Assembly (NCBI GenBank): GCA_030148485.1 | Contig: JASBTJ010000026.1 | Location: 1 to 64,000 of the forward strand | Length of the DNA stretch: 64,000 nucleotides | Direction of reading: 5' to 3' | From: Gammaproteobacteria bacterium | Lineage (GTDB): Bacteria; Pseudomonadota; Gammaproteobacteria; Chromatiales; Chromatiaceae | Translations under genes and position numbers: made by a program | The notes under the pieces: generated by a model | The model's input: only the letters and a program-made list of their open reading frames with translations | Databases searched by the model: none | What the model was told of the DNA's origin: nothing | Shown here: positions 39,608 to 54,172 of the stretch, in pieces | Layout: each line of letters starts with the position of its first letter | Numbering within the stretch: position 1 is the first letter of the stretch

Positions 39608-39994
39608 TCAATCGGAGGGGAACAGGATATGGCGCGCGGCGCCGGGCTTGAGCAGTATACGGTGTAGGAAACGGCAATAGTCGTCCCGCACCCCGCGATG
39701 CAGGATCACGAACGACACCCACACCCCGGGGAGCAGGAACAACGCCAGCCACTGGGCGCCTGCCTGGGGCAACGTGAAGGCCGCCAACCCCAACACATAA
39801 AGGGGCCAGCTGAACAACAACCCGCGCAGACCGTGCTTGATGCCCAACAGCACCGCGATGCCGCGCCGTCGCCATGTCTGTGCCGGCGACCGATACACGG
39901 CTTCACAGATCGCCCGCTCCAACTCGCCGTCCACCTGGTCCAAGCGACGCCCAACCCGCGCCAGCTGCGGGTCCCAGGGCAGCCGGTCAGTCAT
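39608..39994 (-). CDS. Small two-helix membrane protein in the nitrate operon
   Basis: 128 residues, not recognised. Hydrophilic N-terminal ~45 residues (RRLDQVDGELERAICEAVYRS), then two close membrane helices (GLRGLLFSWPLYVLGLAAFTL and WLALFLLPGVWVSFVIL), then a basic tail. Its ATG overlaps the nasA stop by 8 bases, and mobB follows in 4 bases, so it is part of the operon. Possibly a membrane partner of the reductase; no direct evidence. Confidence 0.7.
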   Translation of the reverse strand: MTDRLPWDPQLARVGRRLDQVDGELERAICEAVYRSPAQTWRRRGIAVLLGIKHGLRGLLFSWPLYVLGLAAFTLPQAGAQWLALFLLPGVWVSFVILHRGVRDDYCRFLHRILLKPGAARHILFPSD

Positions 39995-42653
39995 AAGCGC
40001 CGGCAGCGAATTCGGCCAGAATCCGTTTCAGCTCCGGCACGCAGGAGCCGCAGTTGGTACCGGCGTTGAGCGCTTGACCGATCGCTTCAGCCGAGCCGAG
40101 CCGCTGCTCGCGGATCCCCTTGACGATGGTGTTCAGGCCGACGCTGAAACAGGCACACACCACCCGACCGGCATCGTCCTGCCCCTTCGGCGGGGTGCCA
40201 CGCAACAGACGACTGCGCGCCTTTTCGTCCACCTTGTCCAGCTTGAACAGTTCCACCAGCCAGTCGCGCGGCGGCAATTCCGGCGTCGGGCCGATGATGA
40301 TCACCGCGTCCAGGCGACCATTGACCAGCCGCGCCGCGCGGTAGTTCGACTGTGTGGAGTCATACAGCTCGCGCCATTCCGCGCCCGGCTCGTCGGAACA
40401 CAACAGCTGACGCGCCCGTGCGGCCCAGTTGTCCGGGCGCTGCTCACCGGCCACCTCGTAGTGCCACAGCCCTTCGCGCCGTGCCTTGCTCCAGTAGCTG
40501 GCGCGGCGTGGTTTGATGTCGCGCCGGGTGAGCATGAAGCCGTACCAGGCCGCACGGTAGGGGATCACCCGCACGGGGGTGTGTTTGAACTCCGGCTGGC
40601 CGGAGATCAGGTCCACCTTGTCGTTGACCAGGCTGTCGACCCGCGCCGCGCTGGCGTACTGGTCGCTCCAATGGATGGGCGCGAACACGTCGCCGGGCAA
40701 CACACTGTCGCACACCCGAGTACGCAGAATTGCCTCGCCCCAGTGACTGGAGACCGCCGCCAGCGCACCTGCCTCCAGCGACAAGGCTTCGGCGTCGTAG
40801 GGATTGACCACGATGAAGGGCTCGGTGTCATGGGCCGATAAGCGTGGCGACTTGGCGGTACGGGTCATGGTGTGCCAGTGGTCCCGCACCCGACCGGTGT
40901 TGAGCACCAAGGGATAGGCCTCATCGGTGTGGATGGCCGGCGGCCTGGGGGTGACCGGGAGGAAGTTGGCGCGCTGACTGCGCGTGTAGAAGCGACCGTT
41001 GCCGAACAAGCGGGCCTTGGACTGGCCGTTCGCGGCAATGGGCCACTGCACGGGAGCCAGTCCGTCATAAGCCGGTTGGTCGAGACCGATCAGACCGCTG
41101 ATATCGAAGTCCCGATCACCGTGGTTTTCAAAACCGGACAACCGGGCGTGCTCGTCGAAGATCTGCGCCGGGGAGTCGTAGTCCATCCCCGGGAAGCCAA
41201 GCCGCGCGCCCACCTGGGACAATATCCACCAATCGGGCTTGGCCATGCCGGGGCTGGGCAGGAAGCACCGCTGGCGGGAGATGCGCCGCTCCGAGTTGGT
41301 GACGGTGCCGTCCTTCTCGCCCCAGGCCTGGGCGGGCAGCTTGATGTGGGCGTAACGCAAGGTGTCGTTCTCGGCCACACAGTCGGACACCACCAGACAC
41401 TCGCAGCGCGCCAACGCCCGTTTGACCTGGTTGGCGTCGGGCATGCTGACCGCCGGGTTGGTACCCATGACCCACAGCGCCTTGATCCGCCCCTGCTCGA
41501 CGGCACGGAACATGTCCACCGCCTTCAAGCCGGGCTTGTCGGCCAGCTTGGCGGTCTGCCAGAAACGGCTGACCAGCTCATGATGCAGCGGGTCGTCCAG
41601 CTCCATGTGAGACGCCAGTTGGTTGGCCAAGCCGCCTACTTCCCGCCCGCCCATGGCGTTGGGCTGCCCGGTGATGGAAAACGGTCCCATGCCCGGTCGG
41701 CCGATGCGACCGGTAAACAGGTGGCAGTTGATGATGGCATTGCCCTTGTCGACACCGCTGGTGGACTGGTTGATACCTTGGGAAAAAACCGTCACCACCT
41801 GCTCGGTATCGGCAAACCAATTGAAGTAGGTCAACAGGTCCTGTTCGTCCACGCCACAGTGCTCGGCCACCGCGCGCGGCGACGGCGAATACCATTCGGC
41901 AATGCGCAGGGTCTCCTCGACACCCTGGGTCTGATGCCGCACAAACAGTTCGTCCATCCGGTGCTGGTCACGCAGCCACACCAACAAGCCGTTGAACAAC
42001 ACGCTGTCGGTACCGCTCTGTACCTGCAGATGCAGATCGGCGGCGTCGCAGGTGGCGGTCTTGCGTGGGTCGATGACCACCACACGCATCTGGGGCCGTG
42101 CCTTCTTGGCCGCCAGGACCCGCTGGTACAACACCGGATGGCACCACGCCAGGTTCGAGCCGGTCAGTACCAACAGATCGGCCTGTTCCAGATCCTCGTA
42201 ACAGGTGGGCACGGTATCGCTACCGAAGGCACGCTTGTGGGCCGCCACGGCCGACTACATGCACAGGCGTGAATTGGTATCGATGTTCGCCGAGCCGATG
42301 CAGCCCTTCATCAGCTTGTTGGCGACATAATAGTCCTCGGTCAGCAACTGACCCGAGACGTAAAAGGCCACGGCATCCGGGCCATGTTGCTCGATGACGG
42401 CGCGAAAGCGCTGGCTCACCGCATCCAGGGCATGATCCCAATCGGTCTGGATGCCGTCGACCTCGGGCGCCAGCAGGCGCCCCTCAAGGTCGATGGTCTC
42501 ACCCAGGGCGGCACCTTTGGAGCATAGACGCCCCAGGTTGGCCGGATGCGCATTGTCCCCCCGCACCTTGACCTGTCCATTCGACTCCGGCGTGACAATC
42601 ACCCCGCAGCCGACACCGCAGTAAGGACAGGTTGTGCGAACTTCAGTGCTCAT
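39987..42653 (-). pseudogene. nasA: Assimilatory nitrate reductase NasA with BFD domain, interrupted by TAG
   Basis: 888 codons in one frame from ATG 42653 (CAGGAG upstream) to 39987, except a TAG at 42255-42257 (codon 133). N-terminal [4Fe-4S] ligands CPYCGVGCGVIV...GRLCSKG, Mo-ligand Cys 131 in SRLCM, then the TAG exactly where the paralogous NarB has the first Ser of CMSSAV, and normal sequence again (SAVAAHKRAFGSD). The rest is complete (GINQSTSGVDKGNAIINCHLFTG; SITGQPNAMGGREVG) with a C-terminal BFD [2Fe-2S] site (VCACFSVG...CGSCVPEL). Terminated product would have no active site. An intact relative lies at 44666-46870. Confidence 0.88.
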
Positions 42654-42701
42654 GACGCTCCTGGTCGGTCTACTCGCCGCCGCGCCCTGTGCACGGCGGT
42701 A

Positions 42702-44543
42702 TCAATGGGTATCTGCTAACACGCCGACTTGCGGCATCTTGGCCAGCCCGGTGCTCCGGGCGTGTTCGGCAAAACCGGCGTTCTTCCAGAAGAAGGCGCC
42801 CGGCATGGTGGTCGGTACCACGACGGCGTAGAACAGCGCTCGGCCGGCCACGGCAGCCGCAACCACCAACACACTGACAGCGGCCCACAACACCAGGCCA
42901 ATCACGCCATCCGCCCCGGCCGCCGCCAGGGCCGCAATGACCAAGGCCGACACGACCAACAAGCCGTTGCGCAACCAGTAGACCTTACCGAAGTCGGTAC
43001 GTTGCAGATAATGACCCGCAGCGCCCTCGCCGCCTTTGGCGTTCAGATCGTGGGCATGCCGCCACAGGCCGAAGGCTTCCGCCATCAGCCCCAGCACCGC
43101 GGGCACTGCCAGCACGGCCATCAGTTGGGCATAATGCTCGCCCGCAGACAGCGCCAGCGCCATGCTCACCAGGCCCACCGCCAAGGCGCCCAGCGTGAGC
43201 ATATTACCGTAGAAACTGGTCAGGACCTGCCAGTGGTGCCAGTACGGACGCGCCGGAATGCGATAGATGCGGTGCATGAAATACAGCGCCGCCAGACCCG
43301 CCAAGGCGGCCCCCCAACCGACCGCCAGGGACAATCCGTCGACCACCCCGGCGGGCAGCCATCCGGTGAGCACCGGCAAGCCCTTGAGCACCGCATACAG
43401 CCCCAATAGGTTGTAGAACACGGCGACCCCGGCGACCTCGCGGCTGACCGGTGAGTACTTGAGGTTGTTGAACGCCCGGTAGAAGCGGTGCGGCCGCCCC
43501 AGGTGCAGAGTCGACAGCACCAGCCCCAGGGTCTCGATGCCGATCAGCCCGAACACCAGCAGCGGCCAAGCCACCGGGTGGGATGCCGGCGTCGGTACCG
43601 GCAGACCGGCCATGGGGCCGAGGAACAAGGCCAGGAAGGCGCCGACCACCAGCTGGGTAACCAGGGTGAAGACCACCAGTGGATTCTCGCGGGTGGACAG
43701 CCTCCCGAGACCCCAGCGCATGGGACGGCCGTCGTCGTCCACCTTGGGGACATAAGGTCCGCCTTCGCCCTGTTCGTCACGCTCGTAGCGCAACGGCATG
43801 GCATCGGTGCGTTTCATCTCCCGCGGTAGGCTGTTGACCTGCTGGAAGCGGATGTTCGGGTGGGTGATCTCCGGCGTCGGGAAGCCGGGGATCTGCGTCT
43901 CCAACTGATGGCGGTCTTCCGGCGTGGTTTCGATGATGCCGAAGTCCAGGGCCCCCGCCAGACAGGCGGACGAACAAGCCGGCTTAAGCCCGACTTCCAG
44001 CCGGTCCACGCACATATTGCACTTGGACACATGCCCCGCCTGGGTATCCAACTGCGGCGCGTTGTACGGACACACCCAGGTGCAGTACCCGCAACCGAAG
44101 CAGATGTCCGGGTCTTGCAACACCGCGCCGTATTCCGCGAACTTGGTATAGGCACGGGTCGGACAACCCTTGAGACATACCGGGTCGTCGCAATGGTTGC
44201 ACGCCATGGAGATATTCAGTCGCGTGTAGGCCGGATAGGTACCGCCTTCCACATAACCCACAGAGCGGAACGCGATATGGGCCGGCAGGTCGTTCTTTTC
44301 CGAGCAGGCGGCCTCGCAGGCATGGCAGGAGATACAACGATCGGCGTTGAAATAGAAGCCGTGCTGCTTGTACCGATTGGGATTGTCGGAGACCGCATTG
44401 TCGCCGTTGATGTTCAGCGACTTGCCGCGCAACTCATGGCCCGCCGGCACGGTCTCGATGGACTGACCGTAACGGTTCTTTTGCGGGTGATCGGCGCGCG
44501 GCACCCATGCGTAGTTCTGTTCTTTGGGTCGGGGTTCGAACAT
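42702..44543 (-). CDS. DmsB-DmsC-type fusion: four-cluster ferredoxin plus membrane anchor
   Basis: 613 residues from ATG 44543 (GAGAGA upstream). N-terminal part (about 1-270) is a DmsB/NrfC-like [4Fe-4S] subunit: CISCHACEAACSEKN, CNHCDDPVCLKGCPT, CFGCGYCTWVCPYNAP, CNMCVDRL...CSSAC. The C-terminal part (about 300-600) is a DmsC-like quinol-oxidising anchor with eight or so helices. Normally these are two proteins. Lying between narB and nasA, it could feed electrons from the quinol pool to the cytoplasmic NarB. No Tat signal on NarB or here, so the complex would face the cytoplasm. Confidence 0.9.
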   Translation of the reverse strand: MFEPRPKEQNYAWVPRADHPQKNRYGQSIETVPAGHELRGKSLNINGDNAVSDNPNRYKQHGFYFNADRCISCHACEAACSEKNDLPAHIAFRSVGYVEGGTYPAYTRLNISMACNHCDDPVCLKGCPTRAYTKFAEYGAVLQDPDICFGCGYCTWVCPYNAPQLDTQAGHVSKCNMCVDRLEVGLKPACSSACLAGALDFGIIETTPEDRHQLETQIPGFPTPEITHPNIRFQQVNSLPREMKRTDAMPLRYERDEQGEGGPYVPKVDDDGRPMRWGLGRLSTRENPLVVFTLVTQLVVGAFLALFLGPMAGLPVPTPASHPVAWPLLVFGLIGIETLGLVLSTLHLGRPHRFYRAFNNLKYSPVSREVAGVAVFYNLLGLYAVLKGLPVLTGWLPAGVVDGLSLAVGWGAALAGLAALYFMHRIYRIPARPYWHHWQVLTSFYGNMLTLGALAVGLVSMALALSAGEHYAQLMAVLAVPAVLGLMAEAFGLWRHAHDLNAKGGEGAAGHYLQRTDFGKVYWLRNGLLVVSALVIAALAAAGADGVIGLVLWAAVSVLVVAAAVAGRALFYAVVVPTTMPGAFFWKNAGFAEHARSTGLAKMPQVGVLADTH

Positions 44544-44665
44544 CGTTGTCTCTCTTAATGACCTAGCCGGCAGTGGGGCATGATCGCCCTCACCGCCGGC
44601 CCATCTCCCGGGGGACGAGGGTGGCAAGTCGGATACAGCAGACAGGCCACAGCACTGACGGCTGG

Positions 44666-46870
44666 TCAGAACGCACGGGCGGCCCTGTTGCGCACCGCCG
44701 CCGCCTGCTGATCGGCAACCGGCTCGATGCGCGCGGCACACTGCTTGAACGCCGGCTGACGGGAATGCGGGTCCAGCAGGCCCAAGCTGATCCGGTTGAC
44801 GCAATCATGGAAATGGAAGGGGACAAACACCATATTTGGCGGTACGCGCTGGGTGGTCTGCACCATCACCACCGCGTCGCCACGGCGCGACACCACGCGC
44901 GCGTACTCGCCGTGCTTGATGCCCAGCTCCTTCGCCGCGTCGGGATTCATCTCCATGTACGGCGTGGGCGAAAACTTGTTCTGGTTGCCGATCTTGCCGG
45001 TGCGGGTGCGGGTGTGGAAATGCTCCACCACGCGGCCCGAGTTGAACCAGAACGGGTACTCGTCGTCCGGGCGCTCGTTGTTGTCGACGAAGGGCAGCGG
45101 GATCAGCTTCGCCTTGCCCGAGGGATAGGCGAATCGACCGTCGGTGTACAGTCGCTGGGTGCCGCCGCTGGAGTCCTCACCGGCCCACTCGCTGGGCGCA
45201 TCGGAACACGGCCACTGCACACCGCGCTCCTTTTCCAGCTTTTCATAGGTGATCCCCGAATAGTCCAACATCCGGCCACGGGACAGTTCACGCAGTTCCT
45301 CGAACACCTGTTCCGTGGATTCGGGGAATTCCATCTTCTGGCCTTGCTCGAAACGCTTCGCCATCTGGTTGAAGATCCACAGGTCCGGCTTGGCCACGCC
45401 CGGCGGCTCGCTGACGTTGCGGGTCAGGTTCACGCGCCGCTCGGTGTTCGTGAAACAGCCTTCCTTCTCGGCCCACAGCGCAGCCGGCAGGTAGATATGG
45501 GCGTACTCGGTCGTTTCCACGTCACGGTAGGCGTCCTGCACCACCAGGAATTCCAGCTTTTCCAGGATGCGACGGATACGCGGCGTATTGGGCATGGAGG
45601 TCATGGGGTTGGTGGCGATCAACCACAGCCCCTTGATCTGTCCGGTCTCGATGGCCGGCAGGATATCGGTCATGAACAGGCAGCGCTTTTCGGGGAAGAA
45701 GTCCGGATCGACACCCCAGAATTTCGCGATCTCCTGGCGATCTTCGTCCTTTTCCAAGGCGCGGTAGCCGGGCAAGCCAGAGCAGGACGACCACTCGCGT
45801 GTGCCCATGGCATTGGACTGGCCGGTGATGGACAGGCTGGTCCCGCCCTGCTTACCGATATTGCCGGTGATCAGGTTCAGGTTGTTGATGCCCACCACGC
45901 CGTCGGAGCCGTGGGTGGACTGGTTGATGCCCATGGTCCAGATGGACATGGCCTGCTTGGCCTTGCCATACACCCGGGCGACGTTGCGGATGGTGTCCTC
46001 GTCAATGCCGCAGATGCGCGAGGCGGTGACCGGGTCGTACTGCTCGACCAGCGCCTTGAACTCTTCAAAACCTTCTGTGTGGGCCTGGATATAACTCAGG
46101 TCCGCCAGGCCTTCCTTGAGGATGACGTGGGCCAGGGCGTTCAGCAGCACCACGTCAGTACCGGGCTGGATCGGCAAATGGATGTCCGCCATCTGGGCGA
46201 ACATGGTCACCCGGGGGTCCACCACGATGATGGGGAACTTGCGCTTTTCCAAGGTATCGCGCAGGCGCCAGAAGATCACCGGGTGCTGCTCGGGCAGGTT
46301 GGAACCGAAGGCCATCAGGCAGTCGGTGTGCTCGAAATCCTCGTAGCAACCGGGGGGGCCGTCGGACCCGAACGAGCGCTTGTAACCGGACACCGCCGAC
46401 GACATGCACAGGGTGGTGTTGCCATCGTAGTTGTTCGTGCCGATCACGCCCCGAGCCAGTTTGCCCAGGGTGTAGAACTCCTCGGTCATGATCTGACCGG
46501 TGGAGACGATGGAAAAGGCATCGCGGCCGTACTGCTGCTGGATGCGCTTGATCTCGTCCGCGGTGCGGTCCAACGCCGTGTCCCAGGACACTGCCTTGAA
46601 CTCATCCCAACGGTTTTCACGCAACAGCGGTTTCAGACCCCGCCCTGCCGTAGTAAACAGCTCGTGCTCAAAGATCCCTTTGATGCACAGCTTGCCGCGG
46701 TTGACGTCCGCATCGGCCACGCCGCGCGATGCCACCGCCTTGCCTTTGCCATCGATGCCCACCTCGATGGAACAACCCGTCGAGCAATAGCCGCAGGTGG
46801 TGTACTTCCATTCCACCACACCTTTGTCGGCGATCTTGATGGGATTCTTCTTGCCCCGTCCAAACAGCAT
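44666..46870 (-). CDS. narB: Assimilatory-type molybdopterin nitrate reductase (NarB/NasA family), intact
   Basis: 734 residues. N-terminal [4Fe-4S] ligands CGYCSTGCSIEVG and GKLCIKGIF, Mo-ligand Cys in TTLCMSSAVSGYKRSFGSD, MGINQSTHGSDGVVGINNLNL, SITGQSNAMGTRE, and the C-terminal bis-MGD domain (FWFNSGRVVEHFHTRTRTG). No twin-Arg signal, so cytoplasmic; no C-terminal BFD domain, unlike the paralogue downstream. Electron supply is therefore probably the adjacent DmsBC fusion. In operon with nirD (30 bases upstream). Function as nitrate reductase is inferred from family and operon. Confidence 0.92.
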   Translation of the reverse strand: MLFGRGKKNPIKIADKGVVEWKYTTCGYCSTGCSIEVGIDGKGKAVASRGVADADVNRGKLCIKGIFEHELFTTAGRGLKPLLRENRWDEFKAVSWDTALDRTADEIKRIQQQYGRDAFSIVSTGQIMTEEFYTLGKLARGVIGTNNYDGNTTLCMSSAVSGYKRSFGSDGPPGCYEDFEHTDCLMAFGSNLPEQHPVIFWRLRDTLEKRKFPIIVVDPRVTMFAQMADIHLPIQPGTDVVLLNALAHVILKEGLADLSYIQAHTEGFEEFKALVEQYDPVTASRICGIDEDTIRNVARVYGKAKQAMSIWTMGINQSTHGSDGVVGINNLNLITGNIGKQGGTSLSITGQSNAMGTREWSSCSGLPGYRALEKDEDRQEIAKFWGVDPDFFPEKRCLFMTDILPAIETGQIKGLWLIATNPMTSMPNTPRIRRILEKLEFLVVQDAYRDVETTEYAHIYLPAALWAEKEGCFTNTERRVNLTRNVSEPPGVAKPDLWIFNQMAKRFEQGQKMEFPESTEQVFEELRELSRGRMLDYSGITYEKLEKERGVQWPCSDAPSEWAGEDSSGGTQRLYTDGRFAYPSGKAKLIPLPFVDNNERPDDEYPFWFNSGRVVEHFHTRTRTGKIGNQNKFSPTPYMEMNPDAAKELGIKHGEYARVVSRRGDAVVMVQTTQRVPPNMVFVPFHFHDCVNRISLGLLDPHSRQPAFKQCAARIEPVADQQAAAVRNRAARAF

Positions 46871-46900: not shown

Positions 46901-47230
46901 TCAGGCCGCGACTTCGCCGGCTTTCAACGCCAGGAACACCTTGCCGTTCTCCACCTTGGTGGCGAATACATTGGTGCAGCCCTCGTCCGGGCCCAACGCC
47001 TCGCCGGTGGTCAGGTCGATCTTCCAGTTGTGCAGCGGGCAGGTCACAGAGGTACCGTGCACGATACCTTGGGAAAGGGGGCCACCCTTATGGGGGCAGG
47101 CGTCCTTGACCGCAAATACCTGGTCGTGTGCGTTGCGGAACACCGCGATATCCATGGTGTCGGTCTTGATGACCCGGGAACCCAGCTTGGGGATGTCTGC
47201 CAAGGCGACGATTTCAATCCAGTTGCTCAT
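46901..47230 (-). CDS. nirD: Nitrite reductase small subunit NirD, Rieske type
   Basis: 109 residues from ATG 47230 (GAGG upstream). Rieske fold with full cluster ligands CPHKGGPLSQG and CPLHNWKIDL (C-x-H and C-x2-H), which E. coli NirD lacks. Works with NirB in NADH-dependent nitrite reduction to ammonium. It lies ~165 bases after nirB and 30 before narB in the same operon. Confidence 0.95.
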   Translation of the reverse strand: MSNWIEIVALADIPKLGSRVIKTDTMDIAVFRNAHDQVFAVKDACPHKGGPLSQGIVHGTSVTCPLHNWKIDLTTGEALGPDEGCTNVFATKVENGKVFLALKAGEVAA

Positions 47231-47394
47231 TTGTCCGACCTCTTCATTCGGAACGCGAACCCCGCGACGGCGCGAGGCGCGCAAAATTGTTGTTGCCGGG
47301 GAGACATCCGCTCAACCACGCCGCTCGCATCAAACAGGACGCTCAACCCGCCCTTTGCGTGTTTGCAGCCGTTACGCATGCCTCCCGAACCCAC

Positions 47395-49833
47395 TCAGGC
47401 GCTGATGACCACGGGCGTAAACTCGTGGGCTTCGCCGCCCTCTGCGCGCGCCTTCCAGGGGTCGATCTGGGCGTACTTCTGACTGACCTTGAAGCGTTCA
47501 TAGAGCGCCTTGCGGTTGTCGGCATCGTCCAGGATCTGGGTCTTGATGTGGTTCAGGCCGACACGCTCCACCCAGGGAGCGGTGCGCTCCAGGTAGTGGG
47601 CATCCTCGCGATAGAGCTGGATGAAGGCACCGGAAAATTCCAACACTTCTTCCTCGGTCTCGACCTTGGTCAGCAGGTCGGTGACCCGCACCTTGATGCC
47701 GCCGTTGCCGCCGACGTGCAGCTCGTACCCCGAATCCACGCAGACCACGCCGAAGTCCTTGATGGTCGCTTCGGCGCAGTTGCGCGGGCAGCCGGACACG
47801 GCCATCTTGAACTTGTGCGGCATCCACGAGCCCCAGGTGAGCTCTTCCAGCTTCACGCCCAGCCCAGTGGAGTTCTGGGTGCCGAAGCGGCACCAGGTCT
47901 TGCCCGCGCAGGTCTTCACGGTACGCAGCGCCTTGCCATAGGCGTGGCCGGACACCATCCCGGCGGCGTTCAGGTCAGCCCACATGTGCGGCAGATCCTC
48001 TTTTTTGACGCCGAACAGGTCGATACGCTGACCGCCGGTGACCTTCATCTCGGGCACCTCGTATTTGTCGCACACGTCCGCGATGGCACGCAGTTCGTTG
48101 GGGGTGCACAGACCGCCGAACATGCGCGGCACCACCGAGTAGGTGCCGTCCTTCTGGATGTTGCCGTGGGCACGTTCGTTGATGAAACGCGACTGGGCAT
48201 CGTCCTGGTACTCGCCGGGCCAACGGGCGAGCAGGTAATAGTTCAGCGCCGGGCGGCAGCTGGCGCAGCCGTCCTCGGTCTTCCAATCCAGCGCCTTGCG
48301 CACCGCTTCCTGGCTCTTGAGCCCCTGATCGCGGATCGCGGCAATGACGTCGTCGTGGCTGTGCTCGGTGCAAGCGCAGATGCCCTTCTTGCTGGGTGCT
48401 TGGTCGTAGCCTTCGCCGACGGTGCTGGCCAGAATGGCCTCCACCAGCCCGGTGCAGGAGCCGCAGGAGCTGGACGCCTTGGTGTGTGCCTGCACCTCTG
48501 CCAGGGTGAACAGCCCCTTGGTGGTGATGGCATTGACGATGTCGCCCTTGCACACGCCATTGCAGCCGCAGATCTCCGCGCTGTCCGGCAACGCCATGAC
48601 ACTGGCGCTACTGTCACCGTGACCGGCATCGCCCAGATCGTGTTGACCGAACAGGATGCTGTTGCGGAACGCCGAGATGTCGGTGCCTTCCCGCAGCAGG
48701 GTGAAGTACCAGGTGCCGTCCATGGTGTCGCCGTACAACACGGCACCCTTGACCTGATTGTCGCGGATGACCAGTTTCTTGTAGACCCCTTGCGCCGGGT
48801 CCTGCAGCACCAGGGTCTCATCGCCCTCGGCTTCGTTGAATTCACCGGCGGAAAACAGGTCGATACCGGTGACCTTCAGCTTGGTCGAGGTCACCGAGCC
48901 CTCGTAACGGGCGATGCCCATTTCCACCAGATGGTTGGCGACCACCTTGGCCTGTTCAAACAACGGCGCCACCAGACCGTAGCAGTTGCCGCGGTGCTGC
49001 ACGCACTCGCCCACCGCGTAGATCTTGGGGTCGTAGGTCTGCATGGTGTCGTTGACCACCACGCCGCGCTCGCAGTGCAGGCCCGCGGACTGGGCCAGCG
49101 CCATGTTGGGGCGGATGCCGACGGCCATCACCACCAGGTCGGCGTCGATCTGGGAGCCGTCCTTGAACTTGACCCCGCTCACCCGGTCGTCACCCAGAAT
49201 TTCACTGGTCTGCGCTTCCATCAGGAAGGTCATGCCACGAGCTTCCAGCGAGGCCTTCAGCATGGCTGAGGCGGGCTTATCCAGCTGACGCTCCATCAGG
49301 GAGTCGAGCAGGTGCACGACGGTGACGTCCATGCCCTGCTTCATCAGGCCATTGGCCGCCTCCAACCCCAGCAGACCGCCGCCGATGACCACCGCCTTCT
49401 TATGGGACTTGGCGGCCGCCAGCATGGCGTCCACGTCGGCGATATCGCGAAAGCCGATGACGCCTTCCTTGTCATGCCCAGGCACCGGGATGATGAATGG
49501 CATGGAGCCGGTGGCCAACAGCAACCGGTCGTAGCCGGCCTCGACACCGGACGCGGTCACCACCTTGCGGGCGACCCGATCGATGGCCGTGACCTCATCA
49601 CCGGTGACCAGATTGATCCCGTTCTCGGCATACCACTCACGGCTATTCAGAATGATGTCGTCGATGGTCTTCTCACCTGCCAACACCTGCGACAACATGA
49701 TGCGGTTGTAGTTGGGGTGAGGCTCACTGCCGAACACCGTGATCTCGTATTTGTCGGCATCCAGCTTCAGCAGCTCTTCGACAGCACGCATGCCTGCCAT
49801 TCCGTTGCCTACGACGACCAGCTTCTCTTTCAT
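47395..49833 (-). CDS. nirB: Assimilatory NAD(P)H nitrite reductase large subunit NirB
   Basis: 812 residues from ATG 49833. FAD/NAD(P)H domain (VVVGNGMAGMRAVEELL, VVIGGGLLGLEAANGLM, KIYAVGECVQHRGNCYGL), BFD [2Fe-2S] site (CGCNGVCKGD...CGSCTGLVE), and sirohaem-[4Fe-4S] domain with ligands TCAGKTWCRFG and SGCPRNCAEA. Reduces nitrite to ammonium in the cytoplasm. First gene of the leftward operon, under the sigma-54 promoter at 49895-49910. The frame continues upstream to 49899 but that part lies over the promoter. Confidence 0.97.
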   Translation of the reverse strand: MKEKLVVVGNGMAGMRAVEELLKLDADKYEITVFGSEPHPNYNRIMLSQVLAGEKTIDDIILNSREWYAENGINLVTGDEVTAIDRVARKVVTASGVEAGYDRLLLATGSMPFIIPVPGHDKEGVIGFRDIADVDAMLAAAKSHKKAVVIGGGLLGLEAANGLMKQGMDVTVVHLLDSLMERQLDKPASAMLKASLEARGMTFLMEAQTSEILGDDRVSGVKFKDGSQIDADLVVMAVGIRPNMALAQSAGLHCERGVVVNDTMQTYDPKIYAVGECVQHRGNCYGLVAPLFEQAKVVANHLVEMGIARYEGSVTSTKLKVTGIDLFSAGEFNEAEGDETLVLQDPAQGVYKKLVIRDNQVKGAVLYGDTMDGTWYFTLLREGTDISAFRNSILFGQHDLGDAGHGDSSASVMALPDSAEICGCNGVCKGDIVNAITTKGLFTLAEVQAHTKASSSCGSCTGLVEAILASTVGEGYDQAPSKKGICACTEHSHDDVIAAIRDQGLKSQEAVRKALDWKTEDGCASCRPALNYYLLARWPGEYQDDAQSRFINERAHGNIQKDGTYSVVPRMFGGLCTPNELRAIADVCDKYEVPEMKVTGGQRIDLFGVKKEDLPHMWADLNAAGMVSGHAYGKALRTVKTCAGKTWCRFGTQNSTGLGVKLEELTWGSWMPHKFKMAVSGCPRNCAEATIKDFGVVCVDSGYELHVGGNGGIKVRVTDLLTKVETEEEVLEFSGAFIQLYREDAHYLERTAPWVERVGLNHIKTQILDDADNRKALYERFKVSQKYAQIDPWKARAEGGEAHEFTPVVISA

Positions 49834-49894
49834 CTTCTTAAGGACCTCTGAACTTGCCGAGGCTGGGGGTTCGGCCTCGCTTGACCCTCCTCGT

Positions 49895-49910
49895 AGCAAA
49901 ACTTTTGCCA
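49895..49910 (-). promoter_or_regulatory. Sigma-54 promoter of nirB operon
   Basis: Minus strand TGGCAAAAGTTTTGCT, GG and GC 10 bases apart. Start near 49884, leaving a ~50-base leader with a GAGGC/GCCTC hairpin but no terminator and no ANTAR hexaloop. Confidence 0.75.
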
Positions 49911-50266: not shown

Positions 50267-51733
50267 ATGTCCGACAGTAAGCTCAACCTGTTTTCCTTTA
50301 CCGGGAAGGCCCGCACCCTCCATCTCACCTGGGTGGCGTTCTTCATCACCTTCGCGGTGTGGTTCAACCACGCCCCGCTGCTGTCGGTCATCGGCGAAAC
50401 CTTCGGGTTATCCAACCAGGAGCTGAAGGCCCTGCTGATCATCAATGTCGCGCTGACCATACCGGCGCGCATCATTGTGGGCATGCTGGTGGACAAGTAC
50501 GGCCCGCGCATCATGTATTCGGCGCTGTTGTTCATCTCCAGCTGGTTGTGCTTCATCTTCGCCCTGGCCGACTCCTATCAGATGCTGGCGCTGTCCCGCT
50601 TCCTGCTGGGCTTTGTCGGTGCCGGCTTCGTCATCGGTATCCGCATGATCGGCGAATGGTTCCCGGCCAAGCAGGTGGGCGTCGCCGAAGGCATCTACGG
50701 CGGTTGGGGCAACTTCGGTTCCGCCGCCGCTGCCATGACCCTGCCCACCCTGGCGTTGCTGTACGGCGGGGACGAGGCATGGCGTTACGCCATCGGCACC
50801 ACCGGCGCCATCGCCCTGGTGTATTCCTTCGTCTATTACAAGATGGCGCGTAACACCCCCAAGGGTTCCACCTATTTCAAGCCCAAACAGACCGGCGCCA
50901 TGGAGATCACCAGCAAGGGGGACTTCTTCTTCTACCTGCTGATGAACATCCCCATGTACGCCGCGCTGGCGGTGCTGACCTGGAAGCTGGGCCCGGACAA
51001 TCTCGGTATGCTCAGCACCTTTGCCGCCGATGCCATCTACCTGATCCTGATCGGTGTGTACGCCTACCAGACCGCCCAGGTATGGCGCATCAACAAGCAT
51101 GTGTTCAGCGAAACCGTGCCCGAGATACACCGCTACAAATTCAAGCAGGTGGCAGTGCTGGACCTGGCCTATTTCGTCACCTTCGGGTCCGAACTTGCCG
51201 TGGTATCCATGCTACCGCTGTTCTTCAAAGAGACCTTTGGCCTGAGCTTGGTGGAAGCCGGCCTGCTGGCATCCGGTTTTGCCTTCATGAACCTGGTGGC
51301 GCGCCCCACCGGCGGCTGGTTCTCGGACCGTTTCGGTCGTAAGAAGAGTCTGACCTTCCTCATTGCCGGCCTGGCCGCGGGCTATTTCCTGCTGTCCAAT
51401 ATCGACAGCAGCTGGCCGCTGGCGCTGGCGGTTATCGCCACCATGGCCTGCTCCTTTTTTGTGCAGTCGGGTGAAGGCGCGGTGTTCGCCGTGGTGCCGC
51501 TGGTCAAGCGACGCATGACCGGCCAGATCGCCGGCATGGCTGGCGCCTACGGTAACGTCGGCGCGGTCACCTTCCTGACCGCCTACTCTTTCATGGATGC
51601 ATCCCAGTTCTTCCTGGTGATCGCCGCAGCCGCCGTCGTCGCCTTGGTGGCCGTGCAGTTCCTCGACGAACCCGAGGGCCAGACGGCTGAAATCGGTGAA
51701 GACGGTACCGTGCAGATGATCGACGTCAGCTGA
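50267..51733 (+). CDS. narK: NarK/NasA-family MFS nitrate/nitrite transporter
   Basis: 488 residues from ATG 50267 (GGAG upstream), twelve helices. Nitrate signature motifs are present: [13 protein letters not shown] in the N-half and [11 protein letters not shown] in the C-half, with conserved Arg near [10 protein letters not shown]. Imports nitrate (possibly exchanging nitrite) for the assimilation enzymes encoded divergently. First gene of narK - DsrC-like - PP2C/kinase. A second uptake route, NrtABD, is encoded 5 kb away. Confidence 0.95.
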
Positions 51734-51800: not shown

Positions 51801-52442
51801 ATGGCGAGCATCACGGTCATCATGAAAACAACGCGCGAGCCCGTTAAACGCATCCCCGTGACCATTCAGCAGGGCAACGCGGACCGTGTCAGCGTGGTCG
51901 ACACGGACCGCAACGGGGTCGCCGCCTTTCCCGGCATCACCGGCAGCGGGCGGGTATTCGTAGACGGACGTCCCCACTACCAGGGCCCACTCGATCGGGA
52001 TATCGTGGTCGAGCTATGGACCCTGGGCGCCGGCAACACCGATGCCGGTGATGGCGCCCCCCAGGGCATCGGCGGCGGCAGCATCGCCTACCCCAGCATG
52101 CAAACCCGCCCGCTGATGGTAAACGGGAAGGAGGTCCTCACCGACAGTGAGGGTTATATCGTGCACCCGGCGGAATGGTCGGAGGATTTTGTTCGCGCAC
52201 TCGCGGTCGACGAAGGCCTTTCCCTGGGCGAAGACCAATGGGAAGTGATCCACCACCTGCGCGACTTCTACAATCGCAAGCACGTTCAGTGTACGGTCAG
52301 GGACATGATCAAGCACTTTCGCGGTGTCTGGGGGAAGGAGAAGGGCAGCAACAAGTACCTTCACGAACTCTTCCCCAAAGGAGGCCCGCAAAAACAGGGC
52401 AACCGCCTGGCCGGGCTGCTTCGCACCAAGGGTGAGCATTGA
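51801..52442 (+). CDS. Fusion of a beta-sandwich domain with a Cys-less DsrC/TusE domain
   Basis: 213 residues from ATG 51801 (GAGGAA upstream). Residues ~1-75 look like a carboxypeptidase-regulatory/Cna-B type beta sandwich (REPVKRIPVTIQQG, VVDTDRNGVAAFPGI). Residues ~105-213 match DsrC/TusE: LMVNGKEVLTDSEGYIVHP, WSEDFVRALAVDEGLSLGEDQWEV, LRDFYNRK, KYLHELFPKGG. The sulfur-carrying C-terminal Cys of the family is missing: the tail reads LLRTKGEH, and the second Cys of DsrC (KQAC) reads KQGN. It thus cannot carry persulfide like DsrC. It overlaps the kinase start by 4 bases. Regulatory or scaffold role inferred. Confidence 0.85.
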   Translation: MASITVIMKTTREPVKRIPVTIQQGNADRVSVVDTDRNGVAAFPGITGSGRVFVDGRPHYQGPLDRDIVVELWTLGAGNTDAGDGAPQGIGGGSIAYPSMQTRPLMVNGKEVLTDSEGYIVHPAEWSEDFVRALAVDEGLSLGEDQWEVIHHLRDFYNRKHVQCTVRDMIKHFRGVWGKEKGSNKYLHELFPKGGPQKQGNRLAGLLRTKGEH

Positions 52443-54172
52443 GCGGCCAACCCGGCGTTCAGGCCAGCCGCCGCCTGGAAATCGACTTCGCCTGGCGCAC
52501 CGAGGCGGGCGACAAACCGGAAAACGCCGACGCCTGCGACGCCATTGTCCCCAAGGGCGAGACCTTGCGCGCCAAAGGGGTGGCGGCCGCCATTGCCGAC
52601 GGCATGAGCTCCAGCGAAGGCGGACGCGAGGCGGCTGAGGTCTGCGTCAAGACCTTTCTGACCGACTACCTGAGCACCCCCGATTCCTGGACGGTGCGCA
52701 CCGCCACCAGCCGGGTGCTCGGCGCCATCAACCGCTGGCTGTGGGGCCAGGGACAAACCCAATACGATTCGCCGCGGGGCATGGTGACCACCTTCACCGG
52801 CCTGGTGATCAAATCTGCCACCGCGCATATCGTGCACGTGGGCGACAGCCGGCTGTATCGCTACCGTGACGGCGACCTGGAACAACTGACCCGCGATCAC
52901 CGCGTGTGGGTATCCGAGGACCGCGAATTCCTGTCCCGCGCCATGGGTGCCGATCCCCATGTGGACATCGACTACAAATCCCTGCCGGTGCAGGTCGGGG
53001 ACTTGTTCATGTTCTCCACCGACGGCATCCATGAATATCTGACCCGGAAAGACATGGTCGACACCCTGCAGGCGGAACCGCACCTGCAGGCCTGCGTGAA
53101 TCAGCTGGTGGAAAAGGCGCTGCACAACGGCAGCCACGACAATGTCACCTGCCAGTTGCTGCGGGTGGTGGGCCTGCCACCGGCCGACGAGGAAGACCTC
53201 TACCAACAGATCAACGAACTGCCCTTTCCACCCAGCCTGTCGCCCGGCGTGACCATCGACGGCTACCGGATCCTGCGCGAACTGCACGCCAGCAAGCGTA
53301 GCGAGGTATTTCTGGCACTGGATACCGAAACCGACACCCAGGTGGTGCTCAAGACGCCGTCGGAGAACTTCCGCGACGACCCCGAATTCCTGAACGGCTT
53401 TCTGCACGAGGAATGGGTCGGCAAGCGGGTCAACAACACCCATCTGCTGAAGATGCTGGAGCCGCGTCAACGGCGCTTCCTGTACAACATCAGCGAATAC
53501 GTCGCCGGCCGCAGCCTGGCCCAGTGGATGCAGGACAACGGTCCCGCCAGCCTCGACCAGATGCGTGATTTCGCGCGCCAGATCATCGACGGGCTACGCG
53601 CCCTGCACCGGTTGGAGATGTACCACCAGGATCTGAAGCCCGATAACGTGCTGGTGGGCACCGACGGCGTGCTCAAGCTGATCGACTTCGGCGCCGTGCG
53701 CATCGCCGGCGAGGCCGAGATAGACAGCGACATCGATTGCGACCTGCCCCAGGGCACCCTCAACTATGCCGCGCCCGAATGTCTGCGCGGCGAGCCCAGC
53801 ACCAAGGCGTCGGACCTGTTCTCGCTGGGAGTGATGCTCTACGAACTGCTCACCGGCAAGCTTCCCTACGGCGAGTCGGACACCCCCAGGCCGAAATGCA
53901 AGCTCAACTACACCCCGGCCCGGCGGCATAACCCGGCCATCCCGCCCTGGGTGGATGCGGCACTGGAAAAGGCCGTCAGCCCGCTGCCGCAACGTCGCTA
54001 TCACATGCTGTCGGAGCTTGAACAGGATCTGTCCCACCCCAATAAGGCACTACTGGAAAACCACCACGAACCCCTGGTGAAGCGCTACCCGGTGGGGTTC
54101 TGGCAAGGCGTTGCACTGCTCTCGGTGCTGGCCAACATCCTGTTGCTGTTCCTGTTGGCCCGCCCCGGTTAG
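52439..54172 (+). CDS. Bifunctional PP2C phosphatase / Ser-Thr kinase with C-terminal anchor
   Basis: 577 residues from TTG 52439, overlapping the previous stop. PP2C-type phosphatase (about 10-245): AAIADGMSSSEGG, IVHVGDSRLYRY, LFMFSTDGIHEYL, SHDNVTCQL. Ser-Thr kinase (about 265-535): VVLKTPSENF with the ATP Lys, YHQDLKPDNVLV (HQD for HRD), LIDFGAVRI, GTLNYAAPECL. One helix at the very end anchors it to the membrane. A homologous kinase sits by the nitrate transporter and nirBD in Pseudomonas, so it likely tunes nitrate uptake or reduction. Its stop lies in MITE copy 4. Confidence 0.93.
   Translation: MSGQPGVQASRRLEIDFAWRTEAGDKPENADACDAIVPKGETLRAKGVAAAIADGMSSSEGGREAAEVCVKTFLTDYLSTPDSWTVRTATSRVLGAINRWLWGQGQTQYDSPRGMVTTFTGLVIKSATAHIVHVGDSRLYRYRDGDLEQLTRDHRVWVSEDREFLSRAMGADPHVDIDYKSLPVQVGDLFMFSTDGIHEYLTRKDMVDTLQAEPHLQACVNQLVEKALHNGSHDNVTCQLLRVVGLPPADEEDLYQQINELPFPPSLSPGVTIDGYRILRELHASKRSEVFLALDTETDTQVVLKTPSENFRDDPEFLNGFLHEEWVGKRVNNTHLLKMLEPRQRRFLYNISEYVAGRSLAQWMQDNGPASLDQMRDFARQIIDGLRALHRLEMYHQDLKPDNVLVGTDGVLKLIDFGAVRIAGEAEIDSDIDCDLPQGTLNYAAPECLRGEPSTKASDLFSLGVMLYELLTGKLPYGESDTPRPKCKLNYTPARRHNPAIPPWVDAALEKAVSPLPQRRYHMLSELEQDLSHPNKALLENHHEPLVKRYPVGFWQGVALLSVLANILLLFLLARPG

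Follow-up and report, generated by a model that had tools for sequence, protein, structure and literature searches.

The window analysed here is a 64,000-nucleotide stretch of contig JASBTJ010000026.1 (positions 1 to 64,000, forward strand) from a gammaproteobacterium of the family Chromatiaceae, and the gene under study, at 51801..52442 (+), encodes a protein of 213 residues in which an N-terminal beta-sandwich is fused to a DsrC domain devoid of the functional cysteines. The protein belongs to a cysteine-free branch of the DsrC family. The reading favoured here, with a probability of about one half, is that this branch arose in sulfur-oxidizing Gammaproteobacteria and acts as a docking regulator or adaptor tied to the metabolism of nitrogen oxides (N-oxides), and not as a sulfur carrier.

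Membership of the DsrC/TusE fold family, which an earlier sequence-only reading had proposed for the C-terminal half, is borne out by profiles and structure alike. Residues 107-208 match Pfam PF04358 at an E-value of 6.8e-31 (107 bits, cut-off 24.9), the protein scores 88 bits on TIGR03342 (cut-off 53.5), and the best solved relative found by phmmer is DsrC of A. vinosum, 1yx3 (E 3.7e-18), also called dissimilatory sulfite reductase gamma or DsvC. An AlphaFold model built on 59 sequences (mean predicted local distance difference test, pLDDT, 85.5) consists of a sandwich, a low-confidence linker and the DsrC domain (residues 101-213; 52101..52439, +), the last of which aligns to 1yx3 in VIA-align with a Z of 15.7 and 36% identity over 112 residues, in agreement with the sequence alignment; no fold unrelated to DsrC was returned by a fold search with the C-terminal half. 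The N-terminal domain (residues 1-74; 51801..52022, +), which DsrC lacks and which had been anticipated as an addition of about 75 residues, is modelled as a seven-stranded sandwich, possibly of transthyretin or CarboxypepD_reg type. Its VIA-align Z of 8-9 to transthyretin-, CnaB- and carboxypeptidase-regulatory-like domains can mean a mere common arrangement, its match to Pfam PF13620 is weak (E 0.11), and the fold search with this half gave generic matches of these kinds only. The flexible linker (residues 75-100; 52023..52100, +), low in pLDDT, ends in an AYPxMxTR motif conserved in the alignment.

Both functional cysteines of DsrC are gone, as the sequence-only reading had held: in the alignments, within the C-terminal arm GGPQKQGNRLAGLLRTKGEH (52380..52439, +), the CysA position is taken by Asn201 (52401-52403) and the CysB position by Glu212 (52434-52436). 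A functional DsrC is recognised by a penultimate CysB and an upstream CysA in this arm, and the window protein has neither; it shares the Pfam and TIGR families of TusE, but lacks the penultimate Cys and falls far short on the TusE equivalog NF008562 (84.7 bits against a cut-off of 191). Judged by its sequence, the protein has a tail unable to hold a persulfide. Its sole remaining cysteine, C164, stands where 81% of the clade has Ala, and 51 of the 80 clade proteins contain no Cys at all.

In a maximum-likelihood tree the branch forms one clade (support 100/98), apart both from canonical DsrC and from the Cys-less paralogues with a KGGY tail, which share the DsrC fold but differ in the tail and group in a clade of their own (99/95). 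A scan of whole genomes with the tail as seed collected 362 relatives; the best 80 were kept, and come mostly from Chromatiales and other Gammaproteobacteria. Asn201 and Glu212 are invariant in the clade, and the replacements of CysA by Asn, CysB by Glu and the terminal Val by His each stand at 1.00, with the near-invariant Cys-free tail GGPQKQGNRLAG-xxx-KGEH; this conservation is partly built into the seeded set by the seed, which is not the case for the relatives aligned from a whole-protein search, where GGPQKQGNRLAG-xx-TKGEH occurs in 14 of 14. That search yielded homologues of full length with 51-58% identity, and others, lacking the N-terminal domain, with 55-63%. Fixed changes relative to canonical DsrC include A163Q, Y188H, A200G, C201N, C212E and V213H, and N151R also differs, while many DsrC-core residues and the extended KQxxRxAG arm of canonical DsrC are retained; the strongest constraint falls on the C-terminal arm rather than on the helical core. 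Since the window gene is a member of a monophyletic branch with a near-invariant tail, it is not decayed, nor is the observation due to chance, because 27 columns are invariant among 59 aligned sequences and the domain is intact in dozens of genomes.

Of 368 other genomes sampled from the class, 18 contain the tail motif, as do two more class genomes of a phylum-wide sample; none of the sampled genomes outside the class gave a match. Purple sulfur bacteria of the genera Thiocapsa and Thiocystis are among the carriers of the fused gene. A viral origin was also considered, and a search of IMG/VR with the motif gave no matches. Two fused members (L088 and L094) lie on contigs labelled Desulfobulbaceae (isolate Ww282), which would imply either transfer to another phylum or mis-binning. 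A second DsrC paralogue with CysA only (QACKIAGM...) was seen beside or near fused genes, at L088:2428-2760 and L090:4388-4741.

Carriers of the branch nearly all have dsrA: the gene was found in 18 of the 19 genomes that contain the tail motif and in 99 of the 350 that do not (Fisher p 6e-9). The genome of the window holds seven DsrC-family genes in total, with dsrA and a canonical DsrC on another contig (C53). The window gene itself has no such dsr neighbourhood, lying outside the dsr operon and in a nitrate operon, and its branch relatives are not found beside dsr or tus genes with their cysteines kept. Four more DsrC-family genes of this genome have no Cys at the tail positions, namely L002 (C53:42330-42638), L005 (C76), and L006 and L007 (C55); L002 is of the KGGY-tail type and lies about 3 kb from dsrA.

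A link to nitrate had been suggested from the window alone, and proves much broader across the relatives, which are found among nar, nas, nir and other N-oxide genes. Members without the extra domain (the bare form) were represented by 15 loci drawn evenly by motif alone, one of which (L157) has an uncertain start and hence an uncertain form; in 12 of the 15, the gene lies 3' of narI in a narK-narGHJI operon or belongs to a nirBD-nasC-nasB operon. It follows narI in seven loci (L139, L145, L146, L148, L155, L158 and L178), with one small cytochrome-like gene in between in L155, and in L139 all of NarG, H, J and I exceed curated cut-offs and a peptidylprolyl isomerase (PPIase) of FKBP type is encoded downstream in the same operon. 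In six further loci (L140, L141, L142, L152, L153 and L156) it comes after nasC/nasB-like genes, with nirBD upstream except in the truncated L141, and two of the 15 evenly drawn loci, L151 and L157, show no scanned N-oxide enzyme family in the region. The commonest neighbour of the fused form is an HdfR-like LysR gene (35 of 72 loci), usually divergent and adjacent, followed by HPP (18), CBS (18), NnrS (14) and NsrR-like Rrf2 genes (8), and MoaA or MoeA is encoded near a few members; HPP proteins include nitrite transporters (PMC4137279). Compared with 67 random control regions from carrier or related genomes, two of which contain any N-oxide family, such a family occurs in 38 of the 80 loci of a set A (p 1e-10) and 21 of the 28 loci of a set B (p 4e-13). 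These p-values are optimistic, because set A itself guided part of the choice of families, several loci are common to both sets and some of the genomes are related.

An FNR/DNR-type box (TTGATN4ATCAA, at most one mismatch) precedes 14 of 70 fused genes and 11 of 647 other genes (p 4e-9); the boxed fused genes are mostly those without an adjacent LysR gene, and some genera contribute more than one of the 14. Enrichment of NsrR boxes upstream of fused genes was looked for and not seen. Before fused genes with an adjacent LysR (for example L046, L049, L051 and L072), the 7-mers ATCTGGT, TATCGAA and TTCGTTT recur at similar spacing, and are possibly operator sites for LysR or another regulator.

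From these gene arrangements the branch is probably co-expressed with nitrate, nitrite or nitric oxide (NO) metabolism. By analogy with DsrC, whose arm enters the active-site pocket of its partner, the globular domain with its rigid tail (GGPQKQGNRLAG...KGEH) would most likely be a docking module whose arm binds one fixed partner, and it is the rigid conservation of a Cys-free arm that argues for such a partner. The transthyretin-like N-terminal domain is probably a second protein-binding surface. Binding would regulate the partner or couple it to sulfur metabolism. That members of the branch lie near nitrate, nitrite and NO enzymes and regulators, in bacteria with rDsr-based sulfur oxidation, suggests a regulator or adaptor linking both pathways. 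A wider formulation can be offered only tentatively: in sulfur oxidizers that use rDsr, the Cys-free DsrC fold would have been recruited to dock onto, or to regulate, the cytoplasmic metabolism of nitrate, nitrite and NO in general, as a dedicated molecular bridge from sulfur oxidation to N-oxide reduction. The bare form would be its version in nar and nas operons, and the two-domain form would be controlled by FNR/DNR or LysR.

Several observations weigh against a docking regulator of N-oxide metabolism, in addition to the optimistic p-values. In about half of the fused loci, that of the closest relative (L038) among them, no N-oxide gene was recognised over a distance of 8 kb, many of the contigs being truncated; the variety of contexts may point to a general anaerobic or stress function which is not nitrate-specific; and no FNR/DNR box was seen before the narK operon of the window, where the best candidate has 3 mismatches.

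A transcription regulator, in which the DsrC fold with its helix-turn-helix-like part makes the branch a DNA-binding or co-regulatory protein for nitrate and NO genes, is an unlikely alternative which nevertheless deserves consideration. PMC7787665, citing Venceslau 2014, reports a putative transcription-regulatory function of DsrC, and the divergent LysR genes adjacent to many fused loci, the NsrR/Rrf2-like genes at others and the presence of the branch with several N-oxide enzymes whose operons are otherwise unrelated, as for a trans-acting factor, would agree with it. The constraint, however, is greatest in the arm and not in the helical core, and a position 3' of narI or nasB within enzyme operons equally fits a subunit or accessory protein. 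This latter role, as a maturation factor or loosely bound subunit of the cytoplasmic molybdenum nitrate reductases NarG/NasC, positioned like NarJ and the following FKBP-type isomerase, is judged improbable: the seven loci directly 3' of narGHJI with the PPIase of L139, the six nas operons and the MoaA/MoeA genes near some fused members speak for it, but the fused members are mostly not beside a nitrate reductase, the two bare loci without a scanned N-oxide enzyme do not fit, and many nar and nas operons, nearly all NarK-kinase loci included, have no branch member.

It is less probable still that the branch is a decoy which competes with true DsrC at DsrAB, DsrEFH or DsrMKJOP and slows sulfur oxidation under nitrate or NO. 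The almost exclusive occurrence in dsrA-bearing genomes and the DsrC-core residues and KQxxRxAG arm held in common would suit a decoy, but otherwise fixed residues are changed (A163Q, N151R, Y188H), and a role at DsrEFH is disfavoured because the DsrC-DsrEFH interaction is reported to depend strictly on CysB (PMC3397948), which the branch lacks.

The proposal that the protein is a substrate or adaptor of the neighbouring kinase, or a partner of NarK, has come to look rather remote. The window gene does lie, as described, between a narK-type nitrate/nitrite transporter gene (50273..51733, +; TIGR00886, 336 bits over cut-off) and a gene called from open reading frames and profiles as a PP2C phosphatase-Ser/Thr kinase fusion with a C-terminal transmembrane segment (52439..54172, +). 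Of the overlaps claimed, that with the kinase gene holds (4 bp, TTGA, 52439-52442) provided that this gene does begin at TTG, but 67 bp separate the gene from the end of narK at 51733. The overlap, the same gene order in CTD079 (L041) and a bare form preceding the kinase in G322 (L112/L150) favour a kinase link, but these two genomes and the window are the only ones to place a branch member before the kinase. Homologues of the PP2C/kinase were found in 76 of the 229 genomes sampled. Of the 29 best non-self loci, 28 have the kinase directly next to NarK and nothing DsrC-like separating the two; tested on these 29 loci, a kinase-substrate role is not general, and the distribution lends no support to a kinase-specific one. 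As the narK-PP2C/kinase pair is kept without a DsrC-like gene in 28 of 29 loci, and both narK and the kinase are missing from the surroundings of L038, the relative with 76% identity, the window gene appears as a guest in an old NarK-kinase module, whose operon it would have joined. The pair itself (L199-L227) shows strong conservation wherever Gammaproteobacteria were seen to encode nitrate assimilation with it; one literature search found no mechanism for it. Sulfur carriage through another residue, by a true TusE/DsrC as annotation pipelines would name it, can practically be discarded given the Cys-free tail, the unconserved C164, the 51 Cys-free clade proteins and the missed TusE cut-off.

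Non-sulfur-carrying DsrC-like proteins without one or both cysteines were reportedly defined as RspA by Venceslau et al. in 2014, with regulatory roles proposed; the window protein, a DsrC fold lacking both, fits this description. Some of Alvin_0028, Alvin_0345, Alvin_0732 and Alvin_1508 (listed in PMC11267869) are possibly of this kind. Cys-less DsrC paralogues are not new as such, and what looks new is the branch with its N-oxide context: a search of the available literature found no description of DsrC-like genes in nar or nas operons, and the branch is apparently both conserved and undescribed.

The remaining neighbourhood of the window is one of nitrate assimilation. Divergent from narK, nirB (large subunit of assimilatory nitrite reductase, 47395..49899, -) is accompanied by nirD (46901..47284, -, as the listed reading frame, whose true start may be internal; TIGR02378 over cut-off), a nasC-like assimilatory nitrate reductase gene identified by profiles (44666..46870, -) and a DmsB/DmsC-like Fe-S/membrane subunit of the nas operon (42702..44804, -), assigned partly through Pfam matches of the homologue L116. 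The nitrate operon also has a second gene for a NasA-like molybdoenzyme (39987-42701, -), whose reading frame is broken by an in-frame TAG at 42255-42257, inside a conserved motif; this is either a nonsense mutation, a pseudogene or an assembly error. A search of the region for RNA elements gave none.

If the branch couples nitrate or NO metabolism to sulfur oxidation, it would give direct access to the way in which sulfur oxidizers that depend on nitrate adjust electron donor and acceptor to each other, and the presence of culturable purple sulfur bacteria among its carriers makes the idea of such a coupling testable there.
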